64,000 nt of DNA from Pontibacter deserti (GTDB taxonomy: Bacteria; Bacteroidota; Bacteroidia; Cytophagales; Hymenobacteraceae). The stretch is taken from contig NZ_JALPRS010000001.1 of the NCBI RefSeq assembly GCF_023630255.1, forward strand, positions 2,046,001-2,110,000. The letters run 5' to 3'. Positions 1 through 64,000 of the stretch are shown here, piece by piece. The notes under the pieces were generated by a model. The model searched no databases. It was not told where the DNA came from and saw only the letters and a program-made list of their open reading frames with translations. The stretch's first letter is position 1. Each line of letters starts with the position of its first letter. The position numbers and the translations under genes were made by a program.

Positions 1-104
1 ACAACCTGCCTGAGCTGGATAAGAAATTGAAAGAAGGCGCTGACAAAGCCAAAGCTATTGCTGCGCCTGTATTGCAGCGTGTACGCCAGAAATTAGGTTA
101 CTAA
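1..104 (+). CDS. trpS: Tryptophanyl-tRNA synthetase, C-terminal end (partial)
   Basis: Only the last 33 codons are in the window, ending at TAA 102-104. The translated tail contains EGADKAKAIAAPVLQRVRQ and ends in LGY, which matches the helical C-terminus of bacterial tryptophanyl-tRNA synthetases, where a Gly-Ala-(x)-Lys-Ala helix is followed by a Val-Arg-(x)-x-Leu-Gly end. That enzyme charges tRNA-Trp in the cytoplasm. The identification rests on this short tail and on memory of the family, so another class I synthetase or an unrelated helical protein is possible. A strong terminator follows directly, and a degraded copy of this gene end plus terminator lies near 660-742. Confidence 0.5.
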   Translation, partial: NLPELDKKLKEGADKAKAIAAPVLQRVRQKLGY

Positions 105-120
105 CCTACAGTTTATACTT

Positions 121-158
121 AAAAAAGGGCAGCTGAAATCTCAGTTGCCCCTTTTGCT
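121..158 (+). terminator. Rho-independent terminator, bidirectional
   Basis: A stem GGGCAGCTGA / TCAGTTGCCC (one G-U pair) at about 127-150 is preceded by an A run and followed by CTTTTGCTTT. It lies between the plus-strand trpS end and the minus-strand gene ending at 167, so it can serve both. Confidence 0.8.
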
Positions 159-166
159 TTATCAGG

Positions 167-496
167 TTACTTCTCCAGCAGGAAGTATAGAGTCTGAGTT
201 GGATCATTTGCACTTGGAGGAATTGCTGTGAAGTTGCTGCTTTTGATCTGCCAGCCGTTGTTTTGATACTCACTTACCAGCTTCATCACTTCGGTATAAT
301 CTTTCTTATGCTCAGCTTTCACCTGCTTTGTTTGGAAGGCCTGATTGCTTCCAGATAAGTAGATTGTCATATCTTTATAATTCCTATTTACTGCCATAAT
401 AGTCATGGTTTCTTTGGCAGTACCTTGCTCATACTGTTTGAAGCCGAAGAGAGCGGCTGCGGCAAAGAGGAGGGTAAAAAGTATAGCTTTGTTCAT
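167..496 (-). CDS. Hypothetical exported or membrane-anchored protein, 109 aa
   Basis: Not recognised. The N-terminus (residues 1-20) is a hydrophobic signal or anchor segment without a lipobox cysteine. The remainder is a small soluble domain rich in Lys, Gln and Thr, with a patch around residues 70-85 (VSEYQNNGWQIKSS) typical of short sheet-helix proteins that appear as DUF4177-like or orphan proteins in Bacteroidota. The start at 496 gives a good signal sequence. It converges with trpS and shares its terminator. No function can be assigned. Confidence 0.65.
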   Translation of the reverse strand: MNKAILFTLLFAAAALFGFKQYEQGTAKETMTIMAVNRNYKDMTIYLSGSNQAFQTKQVKAEHKKDYTEVMKLVSEYQNNGWQIKSSNFTAIPPSANDPTQTLYFLLEK

Positions 497-557
497 GTTT
501 GTAATATTTTAAAGTGGATAATATTAATTATTAAAAATATACTACGAACACTATATC

Positions 558-621
558 ACAAACTATAAAAGCGGAGGTGGCAACTTAACAACAGGCTGCT
601 GCCTCTGCTTTTATAGTTTGT
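558..621. repeat. Long imperfect inverted repeat
   Basis: Arms beginning ACAAACTATAAAAGC (558-572) and ending with its exact complement GCTTTTATAGTTTGT (607-621) enclose a further partly paired GC-rich section. It sits in the 282-bp gap between two minus-strand genes. It has no T run suited to a terminator and each arm carries a copy of the AACTATA word. Confidence 0.6.
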
Positions 622-659
622 AGTATCAAATTTTCCGGATGAGAAAGCTTCAGTTGTTA

Positions 660-742
660 GTACGCAGAAACCTGGTTATTAAACTATAACTTATACTTAT
701 AAAAAAGGGGCAGCTGGTTTCTCAGCTGCCCCTTTTGCTTTT
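660..742 (+). repeat. Degenerate duplicate of the trpS 3' end and terminator
   Basis: Bases 660-742 line up with 80-159: both run GTACGC, AGAAA, GGTTA, a TAA-like triplet, a TTATACTT word, an A run, then a GGGCAGCTG hairpin and CCCCTTTTGCTTT. By eye about three quarters of the positions agree, with small indels. The hairpin here is perfect (GGGGCAGCTG 707-716 with CAGCTGCCCC 723-732) and acts as a terminator for the minus-strand lipoprotein gene ending at 779. Confidence 0.6.
701..742. terminator. Rho-independent terminator
   Basis: A perfect 10-bp stem (707-716 / 723-732) with a 6-base loop, A-rich on one side and T-rich on the other. On the minus strand it follows the lipoprotein gene that stops at 779. 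Confidence 0.75.
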
Positions 743-778
743 ATACTTAATAGCAGGATTATAATTTCCCGGCTTTAC

Positions 779-1156
779 TTATTTCTTGGTTAAAGGTGCA
801 CCTACTGGTATGCCACAATCGTGGCCTGGCTGACCGTGCGGCGGGTTTGTGCCTGGAGCAACTGTTTGAGGTTGTGTAGTTGATGGCGTAAATGTTGGTT
901 GTGGTACAGATAAGTTCGGCTGAGCCGGAGAGTTAAGCGGTGCACCAACTTTAATATCGCAACGGTGGCCCGGCTCGCCATGTGGCGGGTTCAAACCTAC
1001 CGTAGTTGCTGGTGTGGTAGCCTGGTTAGGGGCAACTGTTGCCGGGGCATTAGCAGCCGGTGCAGTAGTTGTTTTGGTTTCCGTTTTACCGGAATCAGAG
1101 CAACTCATCAGGCCAACAAATAAAGCTGCCACTGCAATCTGGAATGTTATTTTCAT
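779..1156 (-). CDS. Small lipoprotein with two PHGxPGHxC repeats
   Basis: A 125-residue lipoprotein. The signal peptide ends in a lipobox with Cys19 (LMSC). A Thr/Ala/Pro-rich linker follows, then two copies of the motif G-x-NPPHG-x-PGH-x-C-x-I-x-VGAPL, at about residues 54-74 and 102-121. Each copy carries two His and one Cys in fixed spacing. This suggests metal or haem binding, but that is inference. Similar Pro-His-Gly lipoproteins recur in Cytophagales from memory, without a function known to me. It is preceded by an unremarkable 85-bp gap and followed by its own terminator. Confidence 0.75.
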   Translation of the reverse strand: MKITFQIAVAALFVGLMSCSDSGKTETKTTTAPAANAPATVAPNQATTPATTVGLNPPHGEPGHRCDIKVGAPLNSPAQPNLSVPQPTFTPSTTQPQTVAPGTNPPHGQPGHDCGIPVGAPLTKK

Positions 1157-1241
1157 GGTGCGTTTTGTTTTGAGCGGAATCAGAAACTAATATACGTATA
1201 AATGCTGATAAAGAACACTGTATCAGCTGTATACTTATTGT

Positions 1242-2012: not shown

Positions 2013-2044
2013 GTCATGTTCTTAGTAAGACTGTATAAAGCAGT

Positions 2045-2635: not shown

Positions 2636-2666
2636 GTTATAGGTTTTAAAGTAATTCGTATTCAGA

Positions 2667-3077
2667 TTATTTCTTACTGCTTTTTTTAGTGGTGATAAAA
2701 ACTACACCTTGTTTACCCATTTCACCATACATCATAGTTATCTTCTTATCTGTCTCAGCTTTTATAGTTTCCACATCTTCCAATTTCAAGTTATTCAGGG
2801 CCTCCATTGTATAACCACGTCCGTCAAGTATAATCAGTGGAGAAGGATTTTGTGTGATTGGGAAAGATTCACGAACAACTGTTCTCCCATCTTTATCTTT
2901 TGTAATTGATGCTTCTATTTTACCTTCTCTTTTGTTGCTGGTAGAGTCGTAAGTATAGTTAAGATCAGTCTTCATCACTTCCACCACTTTCAGGTACAGG
3001 TCAGATTTGGTAGCATCTTGAGCAAAAGTATAAGATGCTGTAAAGTATAGCAGGGTGATTAGTATAAGCTTTTTCAT
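2667..3077 (-). CDS. Small secreted protein with a TonB-receptor plug-like C-terminus
   Basis: A 136-residue protein with a Sec signal peptide ending in TFAQ (about residue 20). Residues 80-132 run PLIILDGRGYTMEALNNL, ED-VETIKA, then YGEMGKQGVVFITTKK. This mirrors the end of the SusC plug domain (PLxVIDG ... ED-IESIEVLK ... YGSRGANGVxxITTKK), but there is no barrel and no transport domain. The ATG overlaps the TGA of the upstream gene by four bases (ATGA), so translation is coupled. It may be a periplasmic adaptor that mimics the plug, or a relic; this is inference. Confidence 0.7.
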   Translation of the reverse strand: MKKLILITLLYFTASYTFAQDATKSDLYLKVVEVMKTDLNYTYDSTSNKREGKIEASITKDKDGRTVVRESFPITQNPSPLIILDGRGYTMEALNNLKLEDVETIKAETDKKITMMYGEMGKQGVVFITTKKSSKK

Positions 3078-3925: not shown

Positions 3926-4133
3926 TTCTAAAATTGTAAAATAGCAGATTTGGTAAATAAAAGCTGGTTTGGTAATACTCAATTGTACAATTAATAATAT
4001 TCAGCTATCACAATATAAGTAGAACACATCAAAAGCCAAGTATAAAAATTGCCGCACCTACCTTGGCATAAAGCCTTGGCAAGTGCGGCAAGTATAAATG
4101 TTAACTCTTTAGTGCTTACTGTTAACTGTAAAG

Positions 4134-5805: not shown

Positions 5806-5938
5806 GCTTTAAATAAAGTATAGCCCGGTGTAAACCCGAGCTAAAATCTCTTTATTTTGATATTTATATATCACACCAGTTCTTCCGGAAGTACACTTGT
5901 ACAGAAAGGGCTGGTGTGATTTTTTGTCCCTACACAAC

Positions 5939-7696
5939 ATGAGTACAACACAAGAAACAACTATGATTGAACCTGCAATTCAAGAAAAAATAAATGGCTG
6001 GCTAAACGGCAACTACGACGAAGCCACCAAAGCAGAAATCAACGAATTACTGGAGCGTAACGAGCACGAAGCGCTGTCGGATGCTTTTTACCGCGACCTG
6101 GAATTTGGTACCGGTGGCCTGCGTGGCATTATGGGTGCAGGCAGCAACCGCATGAACCGCTATACATTGGGTATGGCAACACAGGGTCTGTGCAACTACC
6201 TGAAAGCTAACTTCCCGGGAGAGCGTGTGAAAGTAGCCATTGCCCACGACAGCCGCAACAACTCCCCTGAGTTTGCCCGCATTGCTGCCGACATCTTCTC
6301 AGCCAACGATATTGAAGTATACCTGTTCCAGGCGCTTCGCCCTACGCCGCAGCTATCGTTTGCCATCCGCCATTTAGGTTGCCAGAGTGGCGTGGTGGTT
6401 ACCGCATCGCATAACCCGAAGGAATACAACGGCTACAAAGTATACTGGAACGATGGCGCGCAGGTAACTGCCCCGCACGACAAAAATATCATCGCCGAAG
6501 TAAACAACATCACAAGTATAGATGAGGTGAAATTTACTCCTAAGCCAAACAACATTCACCTGTTGGGCGAAGAAATGGACGAAGCCTATATCATGAAAGT
6601 GATTGGTTTATCTATCTCGCAGGATGCCATTAAACGCCAGCACGACCTAAAGATCGTTTACACCCCGATACATGGTACAGGTATAACGTTGGTGCCTAAA
6701 GTGCTGCAGCGTTTTGGTTTTAGCAATGTAACTATAGTTGATGAACAATCTGAGCCAAACGGCAATTTCCCGACCGTAGTTTACCCGAACCCCGAAGAAA
6801 AGGAAGCCATGACGCTGGCCCTAAATAAAGCCCGTGAAATAGATGCTGACCTTATACTTGCCACCGACCCTGATTCAGACCGTGTAGGTATAGCCGTGAA
6901 AAACCTGAAAGGTGAATTTGTACTCCTGAACGGTAACCAGACTGGTGCGCTACTTATAAACTACCTATTGCAGGCATGGCAAACAGCAGGTAAGTTAACT
7001 GGCAAGGAGTTTATTGTTAAAACCATAGTTACAACAGACCTGATAAAGGACATTGCAGAAAGCTATGGCGTGAAGCACTACGAAACCCTTACCGGCTTTA
7101 AATACATAGCTGAGAAAATACGTGAGCTGGAAGGCAAAGAAGTATATATTGGCGGTGGCGAAGAGAGCTATGGCTACATGATCGGTGACTTTGTGCGCGA
7201 CAAGGATGGTATCTCAGCCTGCGCCCTGATTGCGGAAATGGCAGCTGTGGCAAAAGACCATGGACAGAGCCTGTTCGAGATGATGGTAGAGATGTACGAG
7301 AAGTATAATTTCTATAAAGAAGAGCTGGTATCGTTCACTAAAAAAGGACAGCGCGGCGCCGAAGAGATTCAGCAGATGATGGCTGAAATGCGTGCAAACC
7401 CGCCGCACACTATAGCTGGCTCTAAAGTAGTAGAAATAAGCGACTTTAAGCTTAGTGCCCGCAGAAACCTGGTTTCAGGTGAAGTAAGCCAACTTGGCCT
7501 GGAAAGCTCTAACGTGCTGCAATACCTGACCGAAGATGGAAGCAAAATATCTGCCCGCCCATCCGGTACAGAGCCAAAGATCAAGTTCTACATCAGTGTT
7601 AACGAGCCGCTGGCATCTGCAGCTGATTTTGATGCAACAGAGCAGAAACTGGATCAGAAAATAGAGCAGATACTGGTTGACCTGAAGCTAAAATAA
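5939..7696 (+). CDS. Phosphoglucomutase/phosphomannomutase (alpha-D-phosphohexomutase)
   Basis: 585 residues from the ATG at 5939; the frame is open further upstream but that part is rich in Cys/Trp and unlike the family. All four family loops are visible: catalytic phosphoserine Ser157 in TASHNPKEYNGYKVYW, the Mg site DPDSDR at 310-315, the sugar-specificity loop GGEESYG, and the phosphate-binding loop ARPSGTEPKIKFY near the C-terminus. The length fits the larger PGM subgroup (B. subtilis PgcA-like). It interconverts hexose 1- and 6-phosphates in the cytoplasm, feeding glycogen and nucleotide-sugar synthesis. Followed by a strong terminator. Confidence 0.93.
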   Translation: MSTTQETTMIEPAIQEKINGWLNGNYDEATKAEINELLERNEHEALSDAFYRDLEFGTGGLRGIMGAGSNRMNRYTLGMATQGLCNYLKANFPGERVKVAIAHDSRNNSPEFARIAADIFSANDIEVYLFQALRPTPQLSFAIRHLGCQSGVVVTASHNPKEYNGYKVYWNDGAQVTAPHDKNIIAEVNNITSIDEVKFTPKPNNIHLLGEEMDEAYIMKVIGLSISQDAIKRQHDLKIVYTPIHGTGITLVPKVLQRFGFSNVTIVDEQSEPNGNFPTVVYPNPEEKEAMTLALNKAREIDADLILATDPDSDRVGIAVKNLKGEFVLLNGNQTGALLINYLLQAWQTAGKLTGKEFIVKTIVTTDLIKDIAESYGVKHYETLTGFKYIAEKIRELEGKEVYIGGGEESYGYMIGDFVRDKDGISACALIAEMAAVAKDHGQSLFEMMVEMYEKYNFYKEELVSFTKKGQRGAEEIQQMMAEMRANPPHTIAGSKVVEISDFKLSARRNLVSGEVSQLGLESSNVLQYLTEDGSKISARPSGTEPKIKFYISVNEPLASAADFDATEQKLDQKIEQILVDLKLK

Positions 7697-7708
7697 GAAG
7701 TTATACTT

Positions 7709-7748
7709 GAAAAAAGCCCGCTCAACTATAAGTTGAGCGGGCTTTTTT
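7709..7748. terminator. Bidirectional rho-independent terminator
   Basis: A 12-bp stem GCCCGCTCAACT / AGTTGAGCGGGC with loop ATA, flanked by AAAAAA and TTTTTT. It separates the plus-strand phosphohexomutase from the converging minus-strand gene ending at 7750. The loop-closing bases recreate the AACTATA word. Confidence 0.9.
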
Positions 7749-7749
7749 A

Positions 7750-9396: not shown

Positions 9397-9527
9397 AATA
9401 CAGGCAGGTATTCAATTTTAGTAGCAGATGGTATCAAAGTTAGGAACTATAGTTGGCTCTGCAACGACTAGAAACGCATAAACAGGCATAGTGTTTAAAC
9501 TATTTTGCCTTAATTTTAGAACCTGCT

Positions 9528-10256: not shown

Positions 10257-10790
10257 TGTCCAACCACCCCTACCCCTCCTTGTCTAAGGAGGGGAGCTTT
10301 TATTGTTACTGCTATAGTTGCTGTTATAGTTTTATAGTTGCTGCTTTAACACCCCTATAGTCCCCTCAAGGGGACAGTTTTTGCTTCAGCCAATTCACCA
10401 GTTATAGTTCTATAGTTACATCCTGTCGAGCGGACAGGTCGCGACCTGCCCCTACGAAACTATAACCACGAGAAAAGCTATGCAACTATAACTTCTCCTC
10501 TAACTATAAGTTAGCTATCGAACTGATATCAGTCTTTGGGTGGAGCGCCTTTGATTTGTTGCGGTGCCGCAAGGCAACACGAGCACAGCGAGGGTAGCTT
10601 CAAATCAGCAGCGCGAGGCCCAAAGACGAGGCCTCCCGGCCATGAGGGCACCAAAGGAAACTATAGATCTGTAGGTAGGTAAAGCTCCCAGGACTACTAG
10701 TGGCTATGAAAGGATAACTTGGTCTGAATAAGTATAAACCTCAACTATAGGACATATAAGATCCCTCGGTTACGCTCGGAATGACAACAG
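10257..10790. repeat. Dispersed multi-hairpin intergenic repeat, copy 1
   Basis: Shares with 44583-45160 and, for its left part, with 26561-26748 an ordered series of blocks: CCTCCTTGTCTAAGG, ACCCCT-x-TAGTCCCCTC, the hairpin GTCCCC-TCAA-GGGGAC, a GCGGACAGGT / ACCTG block (perfect palindrome CAGGTCGCGACCTG in this copy), then a conserved 120-base folded element. It ends in a block with CTCGG-x-TACGCTC and ATGACAA. The blocks are interspersed with TATAGTT words. Confidence 0.8.
10534..10656. repeat. Conserved folded element inside repeat copy 1
   Basis: Outer stem CTTTGGG (10534-10540) / CCCAAAG (10619-10625), middle stem TGATTTG (10552-10558) / CAAATCA (10601-10607), inner perfect palindrome TTGCGG-TG-CCGCAA (10559-10572), then a tail ending GGGCACCAAAG. 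The second copy at 44827-44948 keeps the stems, with an A-to-G change in the outer stem that converts an A-U pair to G-U. Confidence 0.65.
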
Positions 10791-26560: not shown

Positions 26561-26748
26561 GGTCCAACAACCCCTAACCCCTCCTTGTCTAAGGCGGGGA
26601 GCTTTTCTGCCTTTGCTATAGTTGGCATTATAGTTTTATAGTTCCCATTTCAACACCCCTGTAGTCCCCTCAAGGGGGCAGTTTCTAACCTCGTTACAGT
26701 TAGTATTATATTTACAGACTGTGAACGGACAAACACTACCTGCACAAC
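26561..26748. repeat. Dispersed multi-hairpin intergenic repeat, copy 3 (partial)
   Basis: Carries the blocks CCTCCTTGTCTAAGG, a tract with three TATAGTT words, ACCCCTGTAGTCCCCTC, the GTCCCCTCAAGGGGGC hairpin, and a decayed GAACGGACA block. It ends before the conserved 120-base folded element present in the other two copies. Confidence 0.7.
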
Positions 26749-38357: not shown

Positions 38358-39536
38358 TTATTTTACCGCTGCTATTACCCGCTTGATTAGCTCATTCGGG
38401 TTGCCGTTGTGCCAGCGCCAAACTATAACGATGTCATGCTCCGGGTCTACCCATACGGTATTCTGGCCGGCGCCTAGGGCTGCGTAGCTGGTAGTTGGGG
38501 CATCTGGCCAGGCTTTGCCTTCGGTATTCAGCCACCACAGGTAACCATAATCCGGACCAACAGTGCCTCGGGAAGTTGTGGCTTCTTTCACCCATTTTTC
38601 TGAGAGTAGCTGTTTGTTTTTCCAGCGACCGTTGCGCAGGAACAGGTAACCGAAACGGGCTTCGTCGCGGGCACTTATCCAGAGGCCACCACCCCAGCGC
38701 GTACCGCCGCTCACCGATGGCATTTGCTTGCCGTTAATCTCTACTACTGAATTTCTGTAAGGCACCCATCTCCAGGTTTCAGAAGCACCGATCGGGTCCA
38801 TTATTTCATCTTCCAATACTTCCGGCAAAGGCTTTTCCCACAGGCGCAGCAACGACAAGGCAAAGCGGTTGATGCGAACATCGTTATACTCATAAAAGCT
38901 GCCAGGCTCCTGCAGCTCGCGTGGTTTGCGCTCTCCACGGCCAAATGCTTCTTTGCCAACAAAGTCATACTTCTTGCCCCACATTTCGCCTTCCCACTCA
39001 CTCGTCTGGCGTGCATGGTGCTCCCAGGTTACTTTGCTGTTCTGTTCCATATCGTAGCCACCATCCTTCACATACTTTGCCACCGGGTCGTTTGTACTTT
39101 GGATCATGCCTCTATCAATAGTTAAACCAAGTATAGTTGAGAGAAAACTTTTGGCAACGCTATAAGTTGGGTCTGCAGCTTTGGTATCTCCCCACTCTGC
39201 CACAATGTAACCGTCTTTAATAATAATGCCGTTTGTGCTGGCACGGGTAGTTGGCAGTGGTCCCAGTGGCTCTCCGAAAATCTCTTTTTGCGTAGAGAAG
39301 TCTTTTTCTATCTGGGTTGTTTCCTGTGTTTTGGCCCACTCTACTGCTTGTTGCAATAAGGTGGCATCCATACCTACGTCTTCAGGTTTTTTGGTTTGCC
39401 AGTTATTGTCTTTGCCCGGGTAGTATACTTTTGAAGTAGCAGAGTCAGCACTTGATGCGGAACTGGATGTCTGCTTCTCAGAGCACGAAAAAATGGCTAG
39501 TAGTACAAGCAGGTAAGGGTAATTTCTGAGCTTCAT
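38358..39536 (-). CDS. Serine hydrolase, class C beta-lactamase fold, lipoprotein
   Basis: 392 residues from ATG 39536 (the preceding TTG adds one codon). Lipobox AIFSC with Cys18, a Ser-rich linker, then the catalytic domain with the SxxK motif SVAK (Ser126, Lys129) and a YxN-type tyrosine in FYEYNDVRINRFAL. The third motif is replaced by an HNG segment (WRWHNGNPN). It belongs to the penicillin-binding/esterase branch (EstB/AmpC-like); it is unlikely to be a true resistance enzyme. Anchored in the periplasm or outer membrane. Confidence 0.88.
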   Translation of the reverse strand: MKLRNYPYLLVLLAIFSCSEKQTSSSASSADSATSKVYYPGKDNNWQTKKPEDVGMDATLLQQAVEWAKTQETTQIEKDFSTQKEIFGEPLGPLPTTRASTNGIIIKDGYIVAEWGDTKAADPTYSVAKSFLSTILGLTIDRGMIQSTNDPVAKYVKDGGYDMEQNSKVTWEHHARQTSEWEGEMWGKKYDFVGKEAFGRGERKPRELQEPGSFYEYNDVRINRFALSLLRLWEKPLPEVLEDEIMDPIGASETWRWVPYRNSVVEINGKQMPSVSGGTRWGGGLWISARDEARFGYLFLRNGRWKNKQLLSEKWVKEATTSRGTVGPDYGYLWWLNTEGKAWPDAPTTSYAALGAGQNTVWVDPEHDIVIVWRWHNGNPNELIKRVIAAVK

Positions 39537-44360: not shown

Positions 44361-44582
44361 AAAGTTTAATTTTATTCAATTATTTTTGATGTGTTGCTGG
44401 TAAAAGAACCTAAACAGGAAGTATGGTTAGCACAAGATGCAGATAGAAGTCTGAAGTTTTGGTTTTTATTTTTTTAATGTCTGAATCAGGATTTCCGGGA
44501 TTAGTGGATGGACAGGATACTAAAGTATTTGGGACGGTTCTCTGCTCCTGCTAGCATCTGGGTTATATTTTATAGTTACTTT

Positions 44583-45160
44583 GGTCCAACCACCCCTTTA
44601 TCCCCTCCTTGTCTAAGGCGAGGAGTTTTTCCTCGTACAAGCTTACACCCCTGTAGTCCCCTCAAGGGGACAGTTTTGTCTTTGCTATAGCTTCAAGTAT
44701 AATTTTATAGTTACAGACCATGAGCGGACAGGTGGTGACCTGTCCCTACGGATCTACATTGCAGGAGAAGCTAAGAGCTAATATTTCTCTATTAACTGAG
44801 GCAGCTACTATCGAAATGATCACAGGCTTTGGGTGGAGCGCCTTTGATTTGTTGCGGTGCCGAAGGCAACACGAGCACAGCGAGGGGAGCTTCAAATCAG
44901 CAGCGCGATGCCCGAAGACGGGGCCCCGCGGCCGTGAGGGCACCAAAGCCAACTATAAAACGGTAGGTAAGTAAAGCTCCCAAGATTAGAAGCTACTATG
45001 AAAGTAAAGCTTGGTTTAAGATGTAGGAAACTTTAGCTATAGTATATCAGACGCTCACAGGAGCTGCGCACGCTGCTAGGTCTTTACCTATCACTCAAAA
45101 TGACAAATAGAATCTATAGGACATATAAGATCTCTCGGCTACGCTCTAAATGACAAATAC
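44583..45160. repeat. Dispersed multi-hairpin intergenic repeat, copy 2
   Basis: Same block order as copy 1: CCTCCTTGTCTAAGG, ACCCCTGTAGTCCCCTC, GTCCCC-TCAA-GGGGAC, GAGCGGACAGGT, the 120-base folded element at 44827-44948, AAAGCTCCCA, CTCGG-x-TACGCTC and ATGACAA. It lacks the TATAGTT-rich tract that copies 1 and 3 carry between the first two blocks. Confidence 0.8.
44827..44948. repeat. Conserved folded element inside repeat copy 2
   Basis: CTTTGGG (44827-44833) pairs with CCCGAAG (44911-44917) through one G-U; TGATTTG/CAAATCA is unchanged; the tail GAGGGCACCAAAG is identical to copy 1. The inner palindrome has lost one base. Confidence 0.65.
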
Positions 45161-47770: not shown

Positions 47771-48873
47771 GCCAGTGCTTCGTTTGGTTGTTTTACTTTC
47801 GCGTATAGCAGTTGCTCGAGCTGCTCCGCACGGTGATTATACGTGTGCGCAGCCAGTACTTTTTTATAGGCTGCCTCTCCTATTGCTTTCGCTTTTTCTT
47901 CGGTCAGATCGGCAAGTATAGTTGCTACTTCAGCGCCATCTTTTGCTACCAGTATTTCCTTATCCGGCTCAAAAAAGAAGTCGATGCCTTCCCAGTAATC
48001 CGTAATGATGCAAGCCCCTGCACCGGCTGCTTCGAACACGCGCGTAGCCGGCGAGAAACCATAGCGGGCCATACTTTCGCGGCTGATGTTAAGTACAGCT
48101 TTTGGCGTACAGTTAAAAGCATTGTGCTCATGAGTGTACACGTGGCCAATATAGTTCACGTTTTCGCTCAGGTGCTTATCGCCCCAGCCGCTGCCGCCAA
48201 GTATAAACTTCTTATCCGGGTTAGCTTTTGCAGGCTTCAGGAAAAACTCTTCTACACGTGCTTCGCGGTCTGGCAAGCGGTTACCTAAAAAGGCAAGGTC
48301 GCAGGCAAAGCGCTCGTCTGGCTCCACCGGGAAGTGGGTGGCAGTATCCAAAGCATTATAGATCGGTACACACTTTTTAGCTCCCAACGCTTCGTAAGCA
48401 TTTACTACAGGGTCGCCGCCGCCATAGGTCAGGATCATGTCGTATTGCGGAATGTAGGTCAGGAACGGGTCCACCAGGTTGTTGTGCACGCGATCCAGCG
48501 TAGCCGGGGCATCCACATCCCAGAAAACCACCAGCCTGTCATCAGTCTGCAGTTTCAGCACTTCGCGCTCCAGCAGTTCATCAAACACACCCACGCCGCT
48601 GGCTTTTACTACCATGTCGGCTTCTGCGGCCTGTGCCAAGCATTTGTACACCGCATCTTCCGTAGCTTCGTACACCACTACTTTTGCCCAGTCCGGGTCG
48701 TCCATGTCGCGGTTTTGCTGGCGGTCGTAGGCATCAGGCTCATAAAATGTAACCTGGTGGCCACGCTCGCTAAGTGCACGAACTATACCTCTGTAGTAGG
48801 TAGCTGCTCCGTTCCAGTAAGCTGATACCAGGCTGGAGCCGAAGAAGGCGATATTGAGTTTTTTAGATTTCAT
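47767..48873 (-). CDS. CgeB-like glycosyltransferase 2
   Basis: 368 residues from ATG 48873 (MKSKKLNIAFFGSSLVSAYW); the open frame upstream is inside the previous gene. The N-terminal domain resembles that of its neighbours (NGAATYYRGIVRALSERGHQV). The C-terminal domain has GFSPATRVFEAAGAGACIITDYW and WEGIDFFFEPDKEILVA. It overlaps the preceding gene by 11 bases. The FEA-x-G-x(C/G) core and the glutamate within it are the sugar-nucleotide site. Sequence divergence from its paralogues suggests each adds a different sugar or acts on a different acceptor. Confidence 0.87.
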   Translation of the reverse strand: MKSKKLNIAFFGSSLVSAYWNGAATYYRGIVRALSERGHQVTFYEPDAYDRQQNRDMDDPDWAKVVVYEATEDAVYKCLAQAAEADMVVKASGVGVFDELLEREVLKLQTDDRLVVFWDVDAPATLDRVHNNLVDPFLTYIPQYDMILTYGGGDPVVNAYEALGAKKCVPIYNALDTATHFPVEPDERFACDLAFLGNRLPDREARVEEFFLKPAKANPDKKFILGGSGWGDKHLSENVNYIGHVYTHEHNAFNCTPKAVLNISRESMARYGFSPATRVFEAAGAGACIITDYWEGIDFFFEPDKEILVAKDGAEVATILADLTEEKAKAIGEAAYKKVLAAHTYNHRAEQLEQLLYAKVKQPNEALA

Positions 48874-50005
48874 GCAAGGTTTTTTCTTTTGCGGAAGTAT
48901 AGATTTTAGATGCAGGTATGCCCAGTTCTTCACACACTTTTTCCAATTCGTTTACGCGGTGGGCACAGGTATGGCGGTTGCGTATCGTTTCCAGGCCATG
49001 CGCGGCCACTTCATTTGCTTTGTCAGGATTATTAAGTATAGTTTGCAGGTGCTGTTTCATTTCTTCGCCGGTGCGAGCTATCAGGAAATCTTTTCCCGGT
49101 GTGAACAGGTTTTCAGCATCATCCCAAGGCGAAGAGATCAGCGGAATGCCACAGGCCATTGCTTCAAAAGGTCGTATAGTTGGGATACCCGGAAGTGCTT
49201 CTACATAAGGTCTGCGGGGCACATGTACAGTTACTTTATACTTTGCAAACTCTTCGGCAGCTTTATAGTTTGGCAGCCAGCCACCGTATTTTATTCCGGC
49301 ATCGGCCAGTGCTTTGCGTGCATGTTCCGGGTAGCGCACACCGTAAATCTTTGCTTTCAGACCCAGCTCTTTTACCGGATTTATCAAAAACTCGTGCAGC
49401 TCGGCTGTACGCTCTTCGTCGCCCCAGTTGCCGATCCACACCAGGTCGCCTTCATACTCTTTTCGTTCGTGCGGATAAAAAACCGAGGTATCAGCGGCTT
49501 CGTGCCAGGTCCAGGCGTTGGTGGTCCAACCTTCCTGCAAGTATAGATTTTTGATCACCTCGCCAAAGGCCAATACACCATCATAATGGGTCAGTTCATA
49601 CTTGGCCATACTTTCGCGCTCGGTTACGGCACGGTGGTGGGTATCGTGGAAGATAAGTTTATACTTGCCGCTTTTAGCGCGGTGTTCACCAATGCGCTTT
49701 ACCAGGTCATGTTCGCTCCATTCGTGTACCAGTACGAGGTCGGCATCAGCCAGTACATCATCCAGGTTTATGCTTTCAAGCTTGTAAAAATTGGTGCTGA
49801 TGCCAAGGTAATACTGCTGTAGCTCTTCCAGTTTCTCCTCTCCATAACCCTCTACTAAGTTTTGCAGGCTCCAGCCGTTTTCCGGTTCGTATACTTTTAC
49901 CTGATGACCACGCTCCTGCAACTCCCCGACTATACCTCTTAAAAAATGCGCGTTACCGTGGTTCCAGTCAGAAAGTATAGAATGGTAGAAAAGGACTAGC
50001 TTCAT
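48863..50005 (-). CDS. CgeB-like glycosyltransferase 1
   Basis: 380 residues. N-terminal domain MKLVLFYHSILSDWNHGNA followed by HFLRGIVGELQERGHQVKVYEPENGW; C-terminal domain with GIPTIRPFEAMACGIPLISSPWD and AENLFTPGKDFLIARTGEEM. It is the first and least reduced of three tandem CgeB-like enzymes. A 189-bp gap with a hairpin repeat precedes it, so it may have an internal promoter. It is cytoplasmic or membrane-associated; no transmembrane span is visible. Confidence 0.87.
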   Translation of the reverse strand: MKLVLFYHSILSDWNHGNAHFLRGIVGELQERGHQVKVYEPENGWSLQNLVEGYGEEKLEELQQYYLGISTNFYKLESINLDDVLADADLVLVHEWSEHDLVKRIGEHRAKSGKYKLIFHDTHHRAVTERESMAKYELTHYDGVLAFGEVIKNLYLQEGWTTNAWTWHEAADTSVFYPHERKEYEGDLVWIGNWGDEERTAELHEFLINPVKELGLKAKIYGVRYPEHARKALADAGIKYGGWLPNYKAAEEFAKYKVTVHVPRRPYVEALPGIPTIRPFEAMACGIPLISSPWDDAENLFTPGKDFLIARTGEEMKQHLQTILNNPDKANEVAAHGLETIRNRHTCAHRVNELEKVCEELGIPASKIYTSAKEKTLHEI

Positions 50006-51305: not shown

Positions 51306-52352
51306 TTATCTCCCGTAAATTTTATCTAATACTTCTGCTACTCTCACAAATTCTTCGGCCTCTTCGTTAAAGCCTTCGCCTTTAGCCAGACGTTCTGCCC
51401 AGTCCACTCCTGCTCTTCCCGACCAATCATCAGGTGGTGAGCACAATACCTCTGTTTTAGTACCGTAATAGCGCTCGGCTACAAAATCGTAAAAAGACCC
51501 GTTGGTGTTTTTCAAGGCTACGCCGCCTTCTGTGCCATAAAATGTAGCGTTGATGATGGCTTCCTGGCCTGCTGGTAAATTCCAGGAACAGGTTAGCTGC
51601 AGATGTGTGCCGGTTGCTAAGGCTATACTTGCTGTGGCATAATCTTCTACCTTGCCTTCGGCCATACTTATAGGTTTGCCTTTTGCAAATAGCTGGCTGT
51701 GCACTTCCTTTACTTCCGGGAAGTTCAGCGACCATAAGGCCAGGTCTACCAGGTGCACGCCAAGGTCTATTACACAGCCGCCACCAGAAAGTTTCTGTTC
51801 ATAAAACCAGGCTTTATCCGGGCCATAGGCATTATGAAAAACCAGCTCTACCGCATAAATATGGCCTAACTCACCTGACTGCACCACCTTGTATACTTCC
51901 TGCATGGCTTTTGTGTAGCGGTACGACAGGTCCACGCCTAACAGTTTGTTATGGCTGCGGGCAGTATCTACTACACGGCGGGTTTCTTCTATGTTACGGC
52001 CAAGGGGCTTCTGGCAGAAAACAGCTTTACCTGCTTCCAGGGCCAGCATACTTTGCTCAGCATGAAAAGCACTTGGCGTAGCGATCACTACTCCATCTAC
52101 TTCAGGTTCATTAATGACGGCTTCCAACGAATTTACCTGTGTAGCTCCAGGAGCACTTTTCAGGGCTTCAGATGCATTTTGAGGCAAGGTATCAGCTATA
52201 AAAGCCACTTCGCCGGCTCCATTTTTTGCTATCACTTCCATGCGGTTTCGGCCAATCCAGCCGACACCTAAAAAGCCTAGTTTAGGTTTGGTTGATGTCG
52301 CCGAAGAAGGGATAACTGTATGTTGTTCCTGATCAAGTATAGTTTCCTGCAT
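51306..52352 (-). CDS. Gfo/Idh/MocA-family NAD(P)-dependent oxidoreductase
   Basis: 348 residues. Rossmann loop KPKLGFLGVGWIGRNRMEVI; the cofactor-proximal motif is FCQKPLGRN, with the usual EKP replaced by QKP; the C-terminal sheet domain includes SGGGCVIDLGVHLVDLALW, with the catalytic Asp-x3-His. A 20-residue tail before the fold is unusual. It probably oxidises or epimerises a sugar or inositol at a hydroxyl carbon. Spaced three bases from the MDR gene upstream and four from the GT4 downstream, so strongly coupled. Confidence 0.9.
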   Translation of the reverse strand: MQETILDQEQHTVIPSSATSTKPKLGFLGVGWIGRNRMEVIAKNGAGEVAFIADTLPQNASEALKSAPGATQVNSLEAVINEPEVDGVVIATPSAFHAEQSMLALEAGKAVFCQKPLGRNIEETRRVVDTARSHNKLLGVDLSYRYTKAMQEVYKVVQSGELGHIYAVELVFHNAYGPDKAWFYEQKLSGGGCVIDLGVHLVDLALWSLNFPEVKEVHSQLFAKGKPISMAEGKVEDYATASIALATGTHLQLTCSWNLPAGQEAIINATFYGTEGGVALKNTNGSFYDFVAERYYGTKTEVLCSPPDDWSGRAGVDWAERLAKGEGFNEEAEEFVRVAEVLDKIYGR

Positions 52353-57324: not shown

Positions 57325-57452
57325 GCTATATTTAAAATTTAATATTTAAGTATAGTTTTTAGTAATTTATCGTGATAGGTACAAACGTAACGGAAGCAAA
57401 TTGGGTTGTTGATGCTGAAATACGACTATATTTTCATAGCTTAATTTGCGGG

Positions 57453-58957: not shown

Positions 58958-61939
58958 ATGAAGAGAAATTTACTGTTAATTCTCCTTTTTGTCTGTGCGC
59001 TTACAAGCAGCGCCTGGGCTCAGGCACTTGTCGTGTCAGGAAGGGTGACATCAGCAACCGACGGTACAGCCCTACCCGGCGTAACTGTACTTGAAAAAGG
59101 GTCTACTAACGGGGTTACAACCAACAGCTCGGGAGAATATCAACTAACTGTTAGCCCCAACGCAGTACTGCAATTCAGATTTGTAGGTCTTACTACACAG
59201 GAAATTCCTGTAAACGGGCGGTCAAGTATAAATGTACAGATGAGCTCGGATGAACAGCAACTGAAGGAAGTAGTAGTTGTGGGGTATGGTACTCAGCTGA
59301 AACAGGAACTGACAGGTAACGTTGCCCAAATATCCGGAGAGCAGATAGCCAACGTTCCGGCTCCATCCCTGGAATCGGCATTGCAAGGCCGTGCTGCTGG
59401 TGTTTACATAAACCAGGGTAGTGGTAAGTTAGGTTCCGGTATAAATATCCGCGTACGTGGTGCTGCTTCTGTATCGGCAAGTAACCAACCGCTTTATGTG
59501 GTAGATGGTATACCTGTAACCTCCACTGACCTGGGCTCAACCAACGCTGAGCCGCTAAACCCGATAGCGGATATCAACCCGAATGATATCGAATCTATTG
59601 AGATTCTGAAAGATGCCTCAGCTGCCGCTATTTATGGATCCAGAGCATCAAACGGGGTAGTAATTATCACAACTAAGCGCGGTAAGGCAGGTAAAACAAA
59701 CGTTAACTTTAACTACTATACCGGCTGGAGCAAGCCAACCAAGATCAGGGAATTTCTGAACGCAGAGCAATACATTGAGCTATTTACAGAAGCAGCTGAA
59801 AATTCAGATATCGACCCAGCTGACATATTCGATTTTTTTGGGCTGGATATAAACTCAGAAGTTGACCAGAACTGGGACGAAGAGCCATTTCAGAATGGAA
59901 GTGTATCGCAGTATGAAGTATCTCTGAATGGCGGTAGTGATAAGACTCGTTTCTACATAAACGGTAACTATAACACAACGGATGGTATTATAGTTGGTAA
60001 CGAGTTTGACAGAGCAACAGGCCGCATAAACATAGATCATTCTATATCAGACAGATTCAGATTAGGAACCAACCTATCCCTGATCCGCACCCTGAACAAA
60101 CGTGTATCTGATGACAATGCTTTTTCTAACCCGATTCAGCTTAATGCGTTACCACCTATCCAGCCCAAAATAGACCCTGAAACAGGTGAACTTAACAGAC
60201 GCACATTATACTATAATAACCTTATAGACCAACGAGATGGCTTTAACGATGCCCTCACTTACAGAACTATAAGCACTGGTTACTTGGAGTTTGATATACT
60301 TTCTAACCTGCAGTTCAGAACAGAACATGGTATAGATTTCCTTAATCTTCAGGAAGAACTATACTTAGGCAGGCTGACAGAAGATGGCGGCCCATCAGGT
60401 TATGGTTATAATGCCCAGTTTACCTCCAGTAACTATAACACTAACAATACACTAAACTACAATACTGTACTAAGCGATGTTCATAAACTGGACTTCCTGG
60501 TAGGTTTCAGTTATCAGAATGCAAATTCCAATGGCTCTTCTGTTGAAGCCAGAGGTTTCCCAAGCGACAAATTTCAAAAGATCGCAAGTGCTTCCCGTAT
60601 TATTAGCGGCAGCTCTACCGGCACAGATTATGCATTCCTGTCTTACTTTACCCGCGCTAATTATGTACTGAACGAGAAATACTTGTTTAGTGGAAGTGTG
60701 CGTGTAGACGGTTCATCCAGGTTTGGTGAGGATAATCGTTTTGGTACCTTCCCTGCTGCATCTGCAGGCTGGATCATGACAGGAGAAGATTTCCTGAGCG
60801 AAAATAAAGTAGTAAGTTTCCTGAAATTACGTGCGAGCTATGGCCTTACCGGTAATGCTGAAATAGCCAACTTTGCACCACTTGCACTTTACAGTGCATC
60901 TGCCTACGAAGAAGAATCCGGCCTTGTACCAAGCCAGCTACCTAACCCTGACCTGCGCTGGGAGAAGACAAAACAGTTCGATATAGGTTTAGACTATGGT
61001 TTATTTAACGACCGTATTACCGGTGAAATAGATTACTATGTTAAAAATACAGATGACCTTCTGCTGAACCTGCCTTTACCTGCTACCGGTGGCTATACCT
61101 TCATTACAAAAAACATTGGCAAACTGGAGAACAAAGGTTTTGAGTTTGTGATAAACACCCAGAACCTGGTCGGAGAATTTAGCTGGAACACTAACTTCAA
61201 TATAGCATTCAACCGGAACGAGGTTACAGACTTAGGTGGCAATACCATTTTCGGTGATTCCAGGGGATTAGGTCAGATCCGTGAAGGTGAGCCAATGGCT
61301 GTTTTCTGGGGTCCGAAATACGCTGGTGTTGACCCGGATAATGGTGATGCTCTATACTATGTTCGTGCCGGCAGCGATGAAATAACAAACGATTATAGTT
61401 TAGCAGAAGATCAGAAAGTAGGTGACCCGAACCCCAAAGCCATAGGGGGTTTAACTAACACCTTCTCTTATAAAGGATTTGACCTGAACGTATTGATGCA
61501 GTTTGTAACCGGTAATGACATTTATAACATGGCTGGATTCTTCCAGTCAGTAAACGCAGACTTCTTCGATAACCAGACCCTTGACCAACTGGATCGCTGG
61601 CAGAAACCAGGTGATATTACAGACGTGCCACAAGCCAGGTTATTTGGTGGAAATGGTTCCGGCACATCCTCAAGATGGGTGCAGGATGGATCATTCCTGA
61701 GAATTAACCAGGTGAATCTAGGTTATAAACTGCCTGATAACTGGATAAGCAAAGCAAAAATGACATCAGCACGTGTTTATTTGCAGGCAACTAACCTGCA
61801 TACCTTTACCGATTATGATGGCTATGACCCGGAAGTAAACACTACTTACTTCGGACGCAGCAACGTAATGCTTGGCCACGATTTTTATACACCTCCGTTG
61901 GCAAAAACATTTACTATTGGCGTAAACCTGGGGCTATAA
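58958..61939 (+). CDS. SusC/RagA-family TonB-dependent outer-membrane receptor
   Basis: 993 residues. Signal peptide ending SAWAQ (about residue 22), carboxypeptidase-like N-terminal domain (VSGRVTSATDGTALPGVTV), then the plug (VVVGYGTQLKQELTG, LQGRAAGVYIN, PLYVVDGIPV, ILKDASAAAIYGSRASNGVVII) and a beta-barrel ending in FTIGVNLGL with the terminal aromatic/hydrophobic outer-membrane signal. It imports an oligomer with the SusD-like protein encoded next. No adjacent glycoside hydrolase or regulator is in the window, so the ligand (glycan or peptide) is unknown. No sigma/anti-sigma pair precedes it. Confidence 0.96.
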   Translation: MKRNLLLILLFVCALTSSAWAQALVVSGRVTSATDGTALPGVTVLEKGSTNGVTTNSSGEYQLTVSPNAVLQFRFVGLTTQEIPVNGRSSINVQMSSDEQQLKEVVVVGYGTQLKQELTGNVAQISGEQIANVPAPSLESALQGRAAGVYINQGSGKLGSGINIRVRGAASVSASNQPLYVVDGIPVTSTDLGSTNAEPLNPIADINPNDIESIEILKDASAAAIYGSRASNGVVIITTKRGKAGKTNVNFNYYTGWSKPTKIREFLNAEQYIELFTEAAENSDIDPADIFDFFGLDINSEVDQNWDEEPFQNGSVSQYEVSLNGGSDKTRFYINGNYNTTDGIIVGNEFDRATGRINIDHSISDRFRLGTNLSLIRTLNKRVSDDNAFSNPIQLNALPPIQPKIDPETGELNRRTLYYNNLIDQRDGFNDALTYRTISTGYLEFDILSNLQFRTEHGIDFLNLQEELYLGRLTEDGGPSGYGYNAQFTSSNYNTNNTLNYNTVLSDVHKLDFLVGFSYQNANSNGSSVEARGFPSDKFQKIASASRIISGSSTGTDYAFLSYFTRANYVLNEKYLFSGSVRVDGSSRFGEDNRFGTFPAASAGWIMTGEDFLSENKVVSFLKLRASYGLTGNAEIANFAPLALYSASAYEEESGLVPSQLPNPDLRWEKTKQFDIGLDYGLFNDRITGEIDYYVKNTDDLLLNLPLPATGGYTFITKNIGKLENKGFEFVINTQNLVGEFSWNTNFNIAFNRNEVTDLGGNTIFGDSRGLGQIREGEPMAVFWGPKYAGVDPDNGDALYYVRAGSDEITNDYSLAEDQKVGDPNPKAIGGLTNTFSYKGFDLNVLMQFVTGNDIYNMAGFFQSVNADFFDNQTLDQLDRWQKPGDITDVPQARLFGGNGSGTSSRWVQDGSFLRINQVNLGYKLPDNWISKAKMTSARVYLQATNLHTFTDYDGYDPEVNTTYFGRSNVMLGHDFYTPPLAKTFTIGVNLGL

Positions 61940-61960
61940 CCAACCTTAAAATCATCTGAT

Positions 61961-63400
61961 ATGAAACTGAAAAATATATTACTGGCATTTATACTAACGT
62001 CAAGTCTTGGAGTCACCTCCTGTGATGACCTGCTCGATGTTGAACCGCAACAGTCTATTGATGCGAGAGATGCGATCAATACACCTGAGGATTTGCAGGG
62101 CGCTGTAATTGGTATGTATTCTATACTTGGCGAACCTGAACTGTATGGTACCAACCTGTTATTATTGCCAGAACTACAAGGCTCTGAAGAAAATCTAACC
62201 TGGTTAGGTACTTTTGCAGGTTACCGCCAGGTGAGTTTAAAAAACATGACTGCTGATAACTCTGAAGCACAACGCACCTGGATTACTGCTTATGAAGGTA
62301 TAAACCTGGCCAACATTGTTCTGAGTAAGCTGGATATAATGGAAGACCCTGATGAGCGCGACCGTGTAGAAGGCGAGGCACTGTTTGTAAGAGGTATCCT
62401 GCATTTTGAGTTGGTAAGGATGTATGCCAAAGCCTGGAATGATGGAGACCCTACTAACGCTAATGAAAATCCGGGAATACCAATACGGTTAACACCTACA
62501 ACTACTGAAGCTGAGGCAGCCCAGTTACCGACACGCGGCTCAGTAGCAGATGTATATGCCCAGGTGCTGGAAGACCTGCAAGCTGCAAAAGAACTACTAC
62601 CAGAGCGAAACGACGAGCGGGCTAATACTTATGCAGCAAGCGCCTTTTTATCAAGGGTATACCTGCAACAGCAAAACTATGCTGGTGCCCGCGACGAAGC
62701 CAACAGAGTAATTGAAGAAGGAGGTTTTGAACTTAACCCATCTGTAACATCCATTTTCAGGAACGATAACACTGCCGAGGCTATTTTTGAGATACAGCAG
62801 AACGACCAGAACAACGCGGGCTCTGCCAACGATGGTCTTGCTACATTTTATGCTGACCTGGAAGGTATAGGTCGTGCCGATATAAGTGTGAATACAGAGT
62901 TCTCAGATGAGAACCCGAACCGCTACACTACTTATGATTTGTATGAAGAAGATGATGCGCGATTAAATCAGCTCTTTTATGAAGGCTTCAACTTTGGAGC
63001 CATCACAACGGGTAAATGGACAAGCCCTGGGCAAAATATTCCGGTTGTGCGCCTGGCAGAAATGTACCTGACCCGTGCTGAGGCAAATTTCAGGCTGGGT
63101 ACAACTGTTGGAGCCACTCCCCTGGAAGATATCAACACCATCAGAATACGTGCTGGCCTGAACCCTTTACTCATCGTTACACTGGATAGAATCCTGCTGG
63201 AGCGACGTTTAGAACTAGCTTTCGAGGGCTTCCGGATTCATGACCTGAAACGTACCGAAACTGACCTGATTGGTCGTGATCCAGAAAATGGGGCTGAAGA
63301 ATATGTAATTCCCTGGAATGCTGCTGAACTGATTTACCCGATACCAAGACGTGAAATAGACGCCAGCAAAGGATCGTTGAAACAGAATGAAGGCTATTAA
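61961..63400 (+). CDS. SusD/RagB-family surface lipoprotein
   Basis: 479 residues. Lipobox TSC with Cys21, followed by the family start DDLLDVEPQQSIDARDAINT. TPR-like helices follow (EGEALFVRGILHFELVRMYAK, YAASAFLSRVYLQQQNYAGA), and the C-terminal segment IRIRAGLNPLLIVTLDRILLERRLELAFEGFRIHDLKR (in parts) is diagnostic. It caps the SusC barrel and binds ligand at the surface. It starts 21 bp after the receptor gene, so the two form one transcript, ending at the terminator behind it. Confidence 0.96.
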   Translation: MKLKNILLAFILTSSLGVTSCDDLLDVEPQQSIDARDAINTPEDLQGAVIGMYSILGEPELYGTNLLLLPELQGSEENLTWLGTFAGYRQVSLKNMTADNSEAQRTWITAYEGINLANIVLSKLDIMEDPDERDRVEGEALFVRGILHFELVRMYAKAWNDGDPTNANENPGIPIRLTPTTTEAEAAQLPTRGSVADVYAQVLEDLQAAKELLPERNDERANTYAASAFLSRVYLQQQNYAGARDEANRVIEEGGFELNPSVTSIFRNDNTAEAIFEIQQNDQNNAGSANDGLATFYADLEGIGRADISVNTEFSDENPNRYTTYDLYEEDDARLNQLFYEGFNFGAITTGKWTSPGQNIPVVRLAEMYLTRAEANFRLGTTVGATPLEDINTIRIRAGLNPLLIVTLDRILLERRLELAFEGFRIHDLKRTETDLIGRDPENGAEEYVIPWNAAELIYPIPRREIDASKGSLKQNEGY

Positions 63401-63425
63401 GTTTGATAGCTTAGCTGAACTACAA

Positions 63426-63462
63426 AAAAGGCTCCTTACAAAGAGGAGCCTTTGCTTTTAAA
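63426..63462 (+). terminator. Rho-independent terminator after susD
   Basis: AAAAAAGGCTCCTT, six-base loop, AGGAGCCTTTGCTTTT: 8-bp stem with A/T flanks. Confidence 0.85.
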
Positions 63463-63485
63463 CTGAAATATAAATTGAGTTAAGT

Positions 63486-63540
63486 TAAAGTATAGATCTG
63501 AAATTAAGATTAATTTGCATCATGTTTAATCTATACTTTA
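63486..63540. repeat. 12-bp inverted repeat of motif words before the TonB-C gene
   Basis: TAAAGTATAGAT (63486-63497) and ATCTATACTTTA (63529-63540), perfect complements enclosing 31 bases, with the right arm ending three bases before the ATG at 63544. It could be an operator or a leader hairpin that occludes the start. Confidence 0.55.
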
Positions 63541-63543
63541 TCT

Positions 63544-64000
63544 ATGAAGCTAACTTTTACCATTTCCCTTGCGGTTGCCCTGCTACTATACTTTCCTGAA
63601 CGGGCTTTTTCTCAAAACAATACCGACGGTGCAGCCAGTAAAACGGTGTACGAGTATGTAGAAACCATGCCTAGTTACAATGGTGGTCAGGATGCTATGC
63701 TAAAGTACTTGTCTAGTAGTATTCCTTATACAAATGCTCAGGCGCAGGGGCTAGTAGTTGTTAGTTTTGTAGTTGATACTGATGGGAGTGTAAATCAGGT
63801 AAAAGTATTGAAGAGCCTGCATCCTAAACTGGATTCTGTTTGTGTGCAGTCTGTGAAGAACATGAGTGGCCACTGGACATCTGGTTACCAAAAAGGCAAG
63901 CCTGTTGCTGTGCGCTATACCTTACCGGTAAAATTCACAAATAATAGCTCCGGGTCTTCGACCGACAAACAGGATATGCCCGAGTTTACAGGTGGCCGAA
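63544..64000 (+). CDS. TonB C-terminal domain protein (partial, no anchor)
   Basis: 152 residues are visible; the gene runs past the window. Signal peptide (residues 1-24, ending AFSQ), then a TonB C-terminal-like domain: MPSYNGGQDAMLKYLSSSI, LVVVSFVVDTDGSVNQVKVLK and the strand PVAVRYTLPVKFTN. At the window edge MPEFTGGR begins a second copy of the same opening, so tandem TonB-C domains are likely. Unlike TonB it has a cleavable signal, so it would be free in the periplasm. It could interact with SusC plugs; this is inference from position after the SusC/D pair. Confidence 0.78.
   Translation, partial: MKLTFTISLAVALLLYFPERAFSQNNTDGAASKTVYEYVETMPSYNGGQDAMLKYLSSSIPYTNAQAQGLVVVSFVVDTDGSVNQVKVLKSLHPKLDSVCVQSVKNMSGHWTSGYQKGKPVAVRYTLPVKFTNNSSGSSTDKQDMPEFTGGR

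Follow-up and report, generated by a model that had tools for sequence, protein, structure and literature searches.

AASTATA, a genome-scale word with lineage-specific dialects in Pontibacter, possibly an uptake-sequence-like self-recognition signal

Why should one seven-letter word recur every few hundred base pairs along a bacterial chromosome, in genes as well as between them? The question is raised by a 64,000-nucleotide stretch of the Pontibacter deserti genome (assembly GCF_023630255.1, contig NZ_JALPRS010000001.1, positions 2,046,001 to 2,110,000; henceforth the window), which is filled with the word AASTATA, that is, AAGTATA and AACTATA and their complements. We find that this signal is real, large and genome-scale, that several dialects of it are conserved and differ in place across the genus, and that a separate case exists in another genus. 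As to the mechanism behind the word, we infer one resembling the DNA uptake sequences of other bacteria.

A preliminary description of the window had claimed strong over-representation, and counts in the window, in the whole genome and after codon shuffling bear this out in full. On its two strands the window holds 257 sites, about 1 per 249 bp:

1..64000, both strands: AASTATA words, 149 AAGTATA and 108 AACTATA (motif counts)

Base composition predicts 12.1 copies per word and an order-2 Markov model 19.3 AAGTATA and 11.2 AACTATA, so that about 24-30 AASTATA in all would be expected. Ranked by z score among the 7-mers of the window, the two words come first and second (29.5 and 29.0). The first 5 kb contain 26 words; an earlier hand count had given roughly 20-22. 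The neutral neighbours proposed as a check show no excess in the window (AATTATA 10, expected 11.7; AAATATA 25, expected 22.5) or in coding sequence (CDS), so that the excess is not refuted by them. The whole 4.15-Mb Pontibacter genome carries 15,210 AASTATA (7,656 + 7,554), 1 per 273 bp, as opposed to 1,396 (699 + 697) of the reversed-pattern control. We also applied 20 synonymous shuffles to 232.8 kb of heuristically called CDS within a 284-kb genome sample, open reading frames (ORFs) being called by a simple longest-ORF rule. Shuffling removed most of the excess (AAGTATA 429 observed vs 82 shuffled, AACTATA 231 vs 62), whereas the neighbours have none to begin with (AATTATA 62 vs 64, AAATATA 59 vs 83). 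Synonymous shuffling and the neighbour words together rule out an artefact of codon usage or composition, and a repeat-borne word is ruled out by the dispersal of copies across CDS, both strands and several reading frames.

A comparison with related genomes, which had been suggested along with the whole-genome count, extends the excess across much of the genus; over-representation is a property of the whole genome and of many Pontibacter species, not of the window. Our sample comprised 50 Pontibacter species, namely the P. deserti window and 49 others, each represented for dialect calls by one stretch of at most 20 kb around an anchor gene (some shorter at contig ends, one of 6.9 kb):

5897..7696, + strand: phosphoglucomutase/phosphomannomutase gene, anchor of the 49 stretches and one of the three tree genes

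Two Pontibacter records, 84-85% identical, are the best named relatives of the anchor protein. Labels were assigned by us from de novo counts in these stretches and then compared with whole-genome counts. Nineteen species, Pontibacter aydingkolensis among them, favour AAGTATA, 12 AGGTATA and 6 AACTATA, two genomes (P. deserti and G071) mix AAG and AAC, and 11 show no clear word ("none"). Across whole genomes, the ratio of AASTATA to its reversed control is 4.3-16.3 in the 27 AAG/AAC species; for 10 of the 11 "none" species it is 0.9-2.1. The remaining one, G007, is ambiguous: its 4,874 AASTATA against 1,637 control words give a ratio of 3.0, and its raw count is about that of the weakest AAG species, G020 (4,819 vs 876). 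Each of the 12 AGG species has 5,748-9,303 AGGTATA in its genome, and none of the other 38 species exceeds 3,132. AASTATA stayed at or below 1.41 times its reversed control in 110 genomes from five other genera of the same family, and at or below about 1.1 times in 22 genomes from outside that family but within the order. In the wider Bacteroidota, covered by loci L010-L089 with a minimum length of 9 kb, the two Pontibacter loci headed the best 40 rows (z 19.4 and 15.3) and Larkinella came next (12.8). T seldom follows the word directly (2-5% in each of the three dialect sets), and farther out the flanks hold little else.

The dialects follow the species tree, which was built from three proteins and rooted at its midpoint. 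All 39 word-bearing species lie on one side of a branch with a Shimodaira-Hasegawa-like approximate likelihood ratio test (SH-aLRT) value of 100; the 12 AGG species are split off by another branch (SH-aLRT 100) and the six AAC species by a third (SH-aLRT 72), with P. deserti placed beside the AAC group. Dialect labels need only 5 changes on this tree, the mean of shuffled labels being 26.4, and none of 200 shuffles came as low. The dialects, congruent with phylogeny, are AAGTATA and two further words that each differ from it by a single base, with mixed genomes besides. AAG looks like the ancestral dialect, a reading of polarity that depends on the midpoint root.

A force keeps the word in place over evolution. 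We compared orthologous sites between species, using as controls other orderings of the same letters; the pair statistics reuse species and are therefore not independent, and one of them was repeated on eight disjoint pairs. Between species of the same dialect, the own-dialect word is kept at a fraction of 0.57-0.82 of sites, the permuted controls at 0.19-0.59. At 76-80% identity, AAG words are kept at 0.568 vs 0.219 (n=2,299) and AGG words at 0.669 vs 0.191 (n=251), while AAC words are kept at 0.624 vs 0.354 at 80-85% identity (n=234). Words of other dialects are mostly kept no better than controls.

Where dialects meet, the spelling differs in place. In 60 sampled pairs of AGG and AAG species, 162 of 588 sites (27.6%) carry the other spelling at the same position, the control being 3.6%. 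The eight disjoint pairs give 27/114 (23.7%) vs 3.7%, and 27/128 (21.1%) vs 4.0% when read in reverse. This exchange depends on reading frame: it reaches 37-56% in the three frames where a synonymous change is possible, and in the three non-synonymous frames it amounts to 0/215, 0/841 and 1/6. Of 634 AACTATA sites of AAC species, 37 (5.8%, control 1.0%) are spelled AAGTATA in AAG species. AGG sites are not in excess as AAGTATA in "none" species (18/662, 2.7%, vs 3.7%). Substitutions occur at all seven positions of the word; the most frequent single change in the AAG set is A2 to G2, seen at 80 of the 1,431 sites that were compared.

Word density varies with gene context and base composition. 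CDS carries 1.82 words per kb, divergent spacers 4.38, codirectional ones 5.74 and convergent ones 7.81. Of the spacer sites, 144 are at most 25 bp from a gene 3' end and 70 at most that far from a start, as raw numbers not normalised for spacer length. Within the CDS of the 284-kb sample no coding-strand bias was seen (322 sense, 338 antisense), and in 12 stretches word strand showed no visible trend with GC skew. In CDS of native GC content the pair function takes values of 0.88 (7-20 bp), 0.99 (20-50 bp), 1.16-1.27 (50-300 bp) and 0.93-1.09 (larger distances). Two-kb segments of at least 44% GC hold the word at 10-22 times expectation. In segments below 36% GC it falls to 0.79 times expectation in other word species (12 segments) and 1.77 times in P. 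deserti (13 segments), where density drops to 1.65 sites per kb from 3.67 at 44-48% GC. We take low GC as a sign of recent arrival, which makes these presumed islands; with one exception in the window, the word is under-represented in such presumably newly acquired DNA and in CDS, as uptake sequences are. A low-GC defence and mobile island elsewhere (L143:1-15500, that is G000:C1:860001-875500) encodes a KAP NTPase, a SIR2-domain protein, a Cap15 cyclic-dinucleotide receptor and a serine resolvase, the last 81-84% identical to Adhaeribacter plasmid proteins. No Pontibacter plasmid that could serve as a foreign-DNA control was found among the PLSDB matches listed (40 of 170, and 30 of at least 5,000).

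What force could maintain and respell such a word? Our tentative preference, which we rate a little below an even chance, is that in AASTATA Pontibacter has its own version of a self-recognition word similar to a DNA uptake sequence (DUS), spread by biased transformation. A surface or periplasmic DNA-binding protein of the competence apparatus, a candidate that by the search done would not be a type IV pilin, would prefer word-bearing DNA; DNA of dead kin would be taken up with this bias and then recombined. Word-bearing alleles would spread and lost words be restored, amounting to molecular drive. Were the preference of the receptor to shift by one base, from AAG to AAC or from AAG to AGG, old sites would change in place, mostly synonymously, and new ones would arise elsewhere, yielding clade-specific dialects. 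The genome of P. deserti looks as if it were midway through a shift from AAG to AAC. We infer that biased uptake is the force at work, that Pontibacter is competent, that there is a receptor with changing specificity, and also the direction of the dialect changes. The preliminary description had offered a recognition site and a nucleoid-protein site among the possible roles, and in general terms a site bound or recognised by some protein is supported.

Published parallels exist in the Neisseriaceae. Passages of one study (PMC3630211) describe DUS dialects with a common core that are congruent with phylogeny, as many as 5,918 copies within 2.4 Mb, and one two-dialect genome with 1,294 overlapping dyads. 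According to sections of another (PMC7811141), uptake sequences are scarcer in newly acquired segments and in coding sequence, which is ascribed to molecular drive by biased uptake. Closer to Pontibacter in phylogeny, parts of a study of Riemerella, of the same phylum, report transformation without pilus homologues; the DNA receptor of the Bacteroidota that transform in this way is not established (PMC8459023). ComEC (PF03772), a family of competence channels, is present in all 50 Pontibacter genomes. The match to the DUS pattern, the Riemerella precedent, the universal ComEC and the lack of any prepilin match in the same genomes together lead us to favour an uptake-like system with a pilus-independent receptor. 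In three species the comEC match is irregular, with one in-frame TAA in G022, one in-frame TAG in G009 and a short open frame (561 aa) in G018; each may be either a broken gene or an assembly error.

A number of observations weigh against biased uptake. Words that are not of the own dialect can also be kept better than controls: residual AAGTATA of AGG species (with 0.638 vs 0.347 as one example), residual AAGTATA of AAC species compared at 80-85% identity (0.353 vs 0.246), and AGGTATA among the "none" species (0.588 vs 0.239 for n=17; 0.435 vs 0.151 for n=46). AAGTATA sites of AAG species are AGGTATA in "none" species at 35 of 378 positions (9.3% vs 2.9%); some exchange of spelling exists outside the word system. 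Positions 1-4000 of the window are AT-rich (36% GC) and nevertheless hold 21 words, unlike most AT-rich stretches sampled. The words are not evenly spaced along the genome, whereas the uptake signal sequences (USS) discussed in sections of PMC7811141 are spaced relatively evenly, with drive held to be the cause. Species that lack the word have ComEC just as the others do, and in the 20-kb comEC neighbourhoods of 20 species no gene occurred in all 12 with the word yet was missing from the 8 without it. Type IV prepilins, the class to which the receptors of known DUS belong (PF07963, a profile of 27 positions), gave no match in the 50 genomes, with 8 of 14 control genomes positive, and a type IV pilus receptor is accordingly rejected. 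DUF5689, to which a transformation gene of Riemerella belongs, was rejected as the receptor too, its matches in 22 of 50 genomes being divided between 17 of the 39 with the word and 5 of the 11 without. These matches comprise two unlike kinds of protein, of about 410-450 aa and 1,100-1,300 aa, and the P. deserti gene is part of a SusC/SusD operon that also includes genes for PLD-domain and phosphoesterase proteins. With no pilin machinery found by this search and no even spacing, we do not file the word as a member of the DUS/USS class.

The main rival to biased uptake is a mark like the highly iterated palindrome HIP1 of cyanobacteria, and after it a chromosomal protein site. If a methyltransferase or repair system read the word, and if the word-bearing strand were favoured by mismatch repair or some other process acting site by site, words would build up singly and no uptake would be needed. 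Such a mark would suit the density of 1 per 273 bp with its roughly independent placement, the palindromic-core words of relatives (CCTAGG, TATATA, AATATT), and the replacement of HIP1 in some cyanobacterial lineages by other iterated words with a cognate methyltransferase, as parts of PMC4390886 relate. Against it stand the asymmetry of the word and the near-expected number of AATTATA, the product that deamination of 5-methylcytosine should leave. The PF01555 methyltransferases, moreover, are patchy, with no match in 13 of 39 word species, P. deserti included; the suggestion of a methylation site thus does not fit as a mark for one conserved methyltransferase of this family. We regard a HIP1-like mark as rather unlikely, though to be taken seriously. 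More improbable still, in our estimate, is the binding site of an abundant chromosomal protein, for nucleoid structure or organisation, with a specificity that would have shifted within the clade and with each site under very weak selection like that on codon bias. Site conservation, mostly synonymous change, mild clustering at 50-300 bp and the lack of strand bias would all accord with it; the near-chance level in AT-rich, island-like DNA and the great differences in excess among related species would not, and a parallel shift of thousands of sites would probably come about more easily by drive than by fitness effects.

The preliminary description had also named a mutational hotspot. An error-prone or repair process that writes the word could account for its abundance on both strands and in many frames. 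The hotspot is nonetheless a poor fit, and we give mutational bias alone very little weight: own-dialect words are lost much less often than permuted controls, AT-rich stretches are near chance, and substitutions fall on all seven positions, even if A2 to G2 leads in the AAG set. An oriented signal for recombination or segregation, like crossover hotspot instigator (Chi) sites or the FtsK-orienting polar sequences (KOPS), would likewise be short, asymmetric and over-represented. It would also be strand-biased, and the near-equal division between sense and antisense strands and the missing GC-skew trend speak against it; we find it scarcely credible.

Beyond Pontibacter, another genus of the family shows a comparable excess of a different word. 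CCTAGG has 5,325-6,212 sites in three of its eight species (G074, G083 and G095) and 123-249 in the other five, a ratio of more than 20, and is often found as the asymmetric ACCTAGGG (stretches L185, L187, L188, L214 and L215). CTAG is usually rare in bacteria. The palindromic core of CCTAGG fits HIP-like systems just as well, which is a further point against uptake. Single genomes gave other words, each counted on both strands of three stretches totalling 60 kb: GGTATA 112 vs 36 in G036 (L135, L202, L203), TATATA 238 vs 53 in G069 (L125, L198, L199), and AATATT 282 vs 112 in G090 (L184, L204, L205, on one contig). In 22 kb of Spirosoma profusum (L015), ACGTAG (38 vs 10) and ACGTAT (52 vs 19) are in moderate excess and could be another such word. 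We suggest that all family words can be read as variants of A-NN-TA-NN-V, a template formed after the words had been seen. It is possible, though we would not call it probable, that the family of Pontibacter shares a pilus-independent self-recognition system whose receptor reads this asymmetric, TA-centred octamer and drifts in specificity, with thousands of sites rewritten per lineage: as AAGTATAA, AACTATAG and AGGTATAG in Pontibacter, ACCTAGGG in the other genus, and perhaps as GGTATA, TATATA or AATATT elsewhere.

The word had been called palindromic, which it is not. AASTATA is asymmetric, the perfect palindrome AAGTATACTT is missing from the window, and the flanks of the AAG and AGG sets are not palindromic. 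What the window does contain are overlapping dyads, AACTATAGTT three times and the mixed AAGTATAGTT or AACTATACTT seven times (motif counts, no strand assigned):

6730..6739: perfect dyad AACTATAGTT, two overlapping words
9445..9454: perfect dyad AACTATAGTT
35410..35419: perfect dyad AACTATAGTT
2951..2960: mixed dyad AAGTATAGTT, an AAG word overlapping an AAC word
39129..39138: mixed dyad AAGTATAGTT
47914..47923: mixed dyad AAGTATAGTT
49034..49043: mixed dyad AAGTATAGTT
52335..52344: mixed dyad AAGTATAGTT
57348..57357: mixed dyad AAGTATAGTT
60357..60366: mixed dyad AACTATACTT

Overlapping head-to-head dyads are enriched in the AAG set, the AAC set and the P. deserti genome. Counting palindromes twice, AAGTATACTT occurs 48 times vs 9.9 in AAG species and AACTATAGTT 64 times vs 19.4 in AAC species; AGGTATACCT, at 18 vs 13.4, shows no clear excess. 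In one 20-kb stretch (L106, from G059) TAGGTATA and ATACCTAT are both very frequent (25 and 24 copies), which suggests that AGG words form dense dyads there or make up a local tandem array.

Of an interspersed, word-rich repeat of up to about 0.6 kb we found three copies in the window, whose main blocks are 80-83% alike:

10313..10339, - strand: three AACTATA words (TATAGTT x3) within the repeat copy at about 10235-10787 (motif positions, blastn)
26617..26643, - strand: three-word AACTATA tract in the repeat copy 26545-26684 (motif positions, blastn)
44562..45156, no strand assigned: third copy of the repeat, about 33 bp shorter at the tract site (blastn blocks)

The three-word tracts previously described in two copies are indeed present, and at their place the third copy has 14 bp between flanking blastn blocks where 47 bp would correspond. 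Gain or loss of words as units, proposed on this basis, is supported for this one tract; many sites show a point change at the same position instead.

The Pasteurellaceae and Neisseriaceae are known to take up DNA sequence-specifically, and we know of no uptake-sequence system outside these two families, although we made no systematic search. Among the titles and abstract openings listed in searches of open-licence PubMed Central (PMC) papers, none describes such a word in Pontibacter or its relatives. If uptake is the correct explanation, this would be the first uptake-sequence system known to us outside those families, with a dialect change in progress in the P. deserti genome. A conserved word with dialects offers a direct handle for fishing out a DNA receptor in Bacteroidota, and because the 50 related genomes range from different words through mixtures to no word at all, drive, selection and repair bias can be tested on them as mechanisms of spread. 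If the word is instead HIP-like, it would be an independent and fast-changing case of that unsolved phenomenon.

How, then, does the word compare with known systems? Like Chi and KOPS it is a short, asymmetric and over-represented word; those are strand-biased, and here no bias was seen. The transformation system of Riemerella anatipestifer belongs to the same phylum and likewise involves ComEC, with competence there reported in parts of PMC8459023 to proceed without pilus homologues; it differs in that the terms "uptake sequence", "own DNA" and "species-specific" do not occur in the main text of that paper, and in that DUF5689 does not track the Pontibacter word. The earlier likening to HIP1 holds for abundance, for placement in genes and spacers at high density, and for replacement by other words in particular lineages, as with the alternate HIPs of cyanobacteria. 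It fails in that HIP1, an octamer, is palindromic, rich in GC and linked with methyltransferases, while the Pontibacter word is AT-rich and asymmetric, has phylogeny-congruent dialects and showed no link to PF01555. From the DUS of Neisseriaceae and the USS of Pasteurellaceae it differs in phylum, in its shorter length, in the missing prepilin match and even spacing, and in that uptake is here a proposal. It shares with them a short asymmetric word in thousands of copies, single-base dialects around a common core that agree with phylogeny, a two-dialect genome with overlapping dyads, spacers richer than genes, and near-chance levels in presumably newly acquired DNA. Being asymmetric, with phylogeny-congruent dialects that share TATA, the word stands closer to the DUS dialects than to HIP1.

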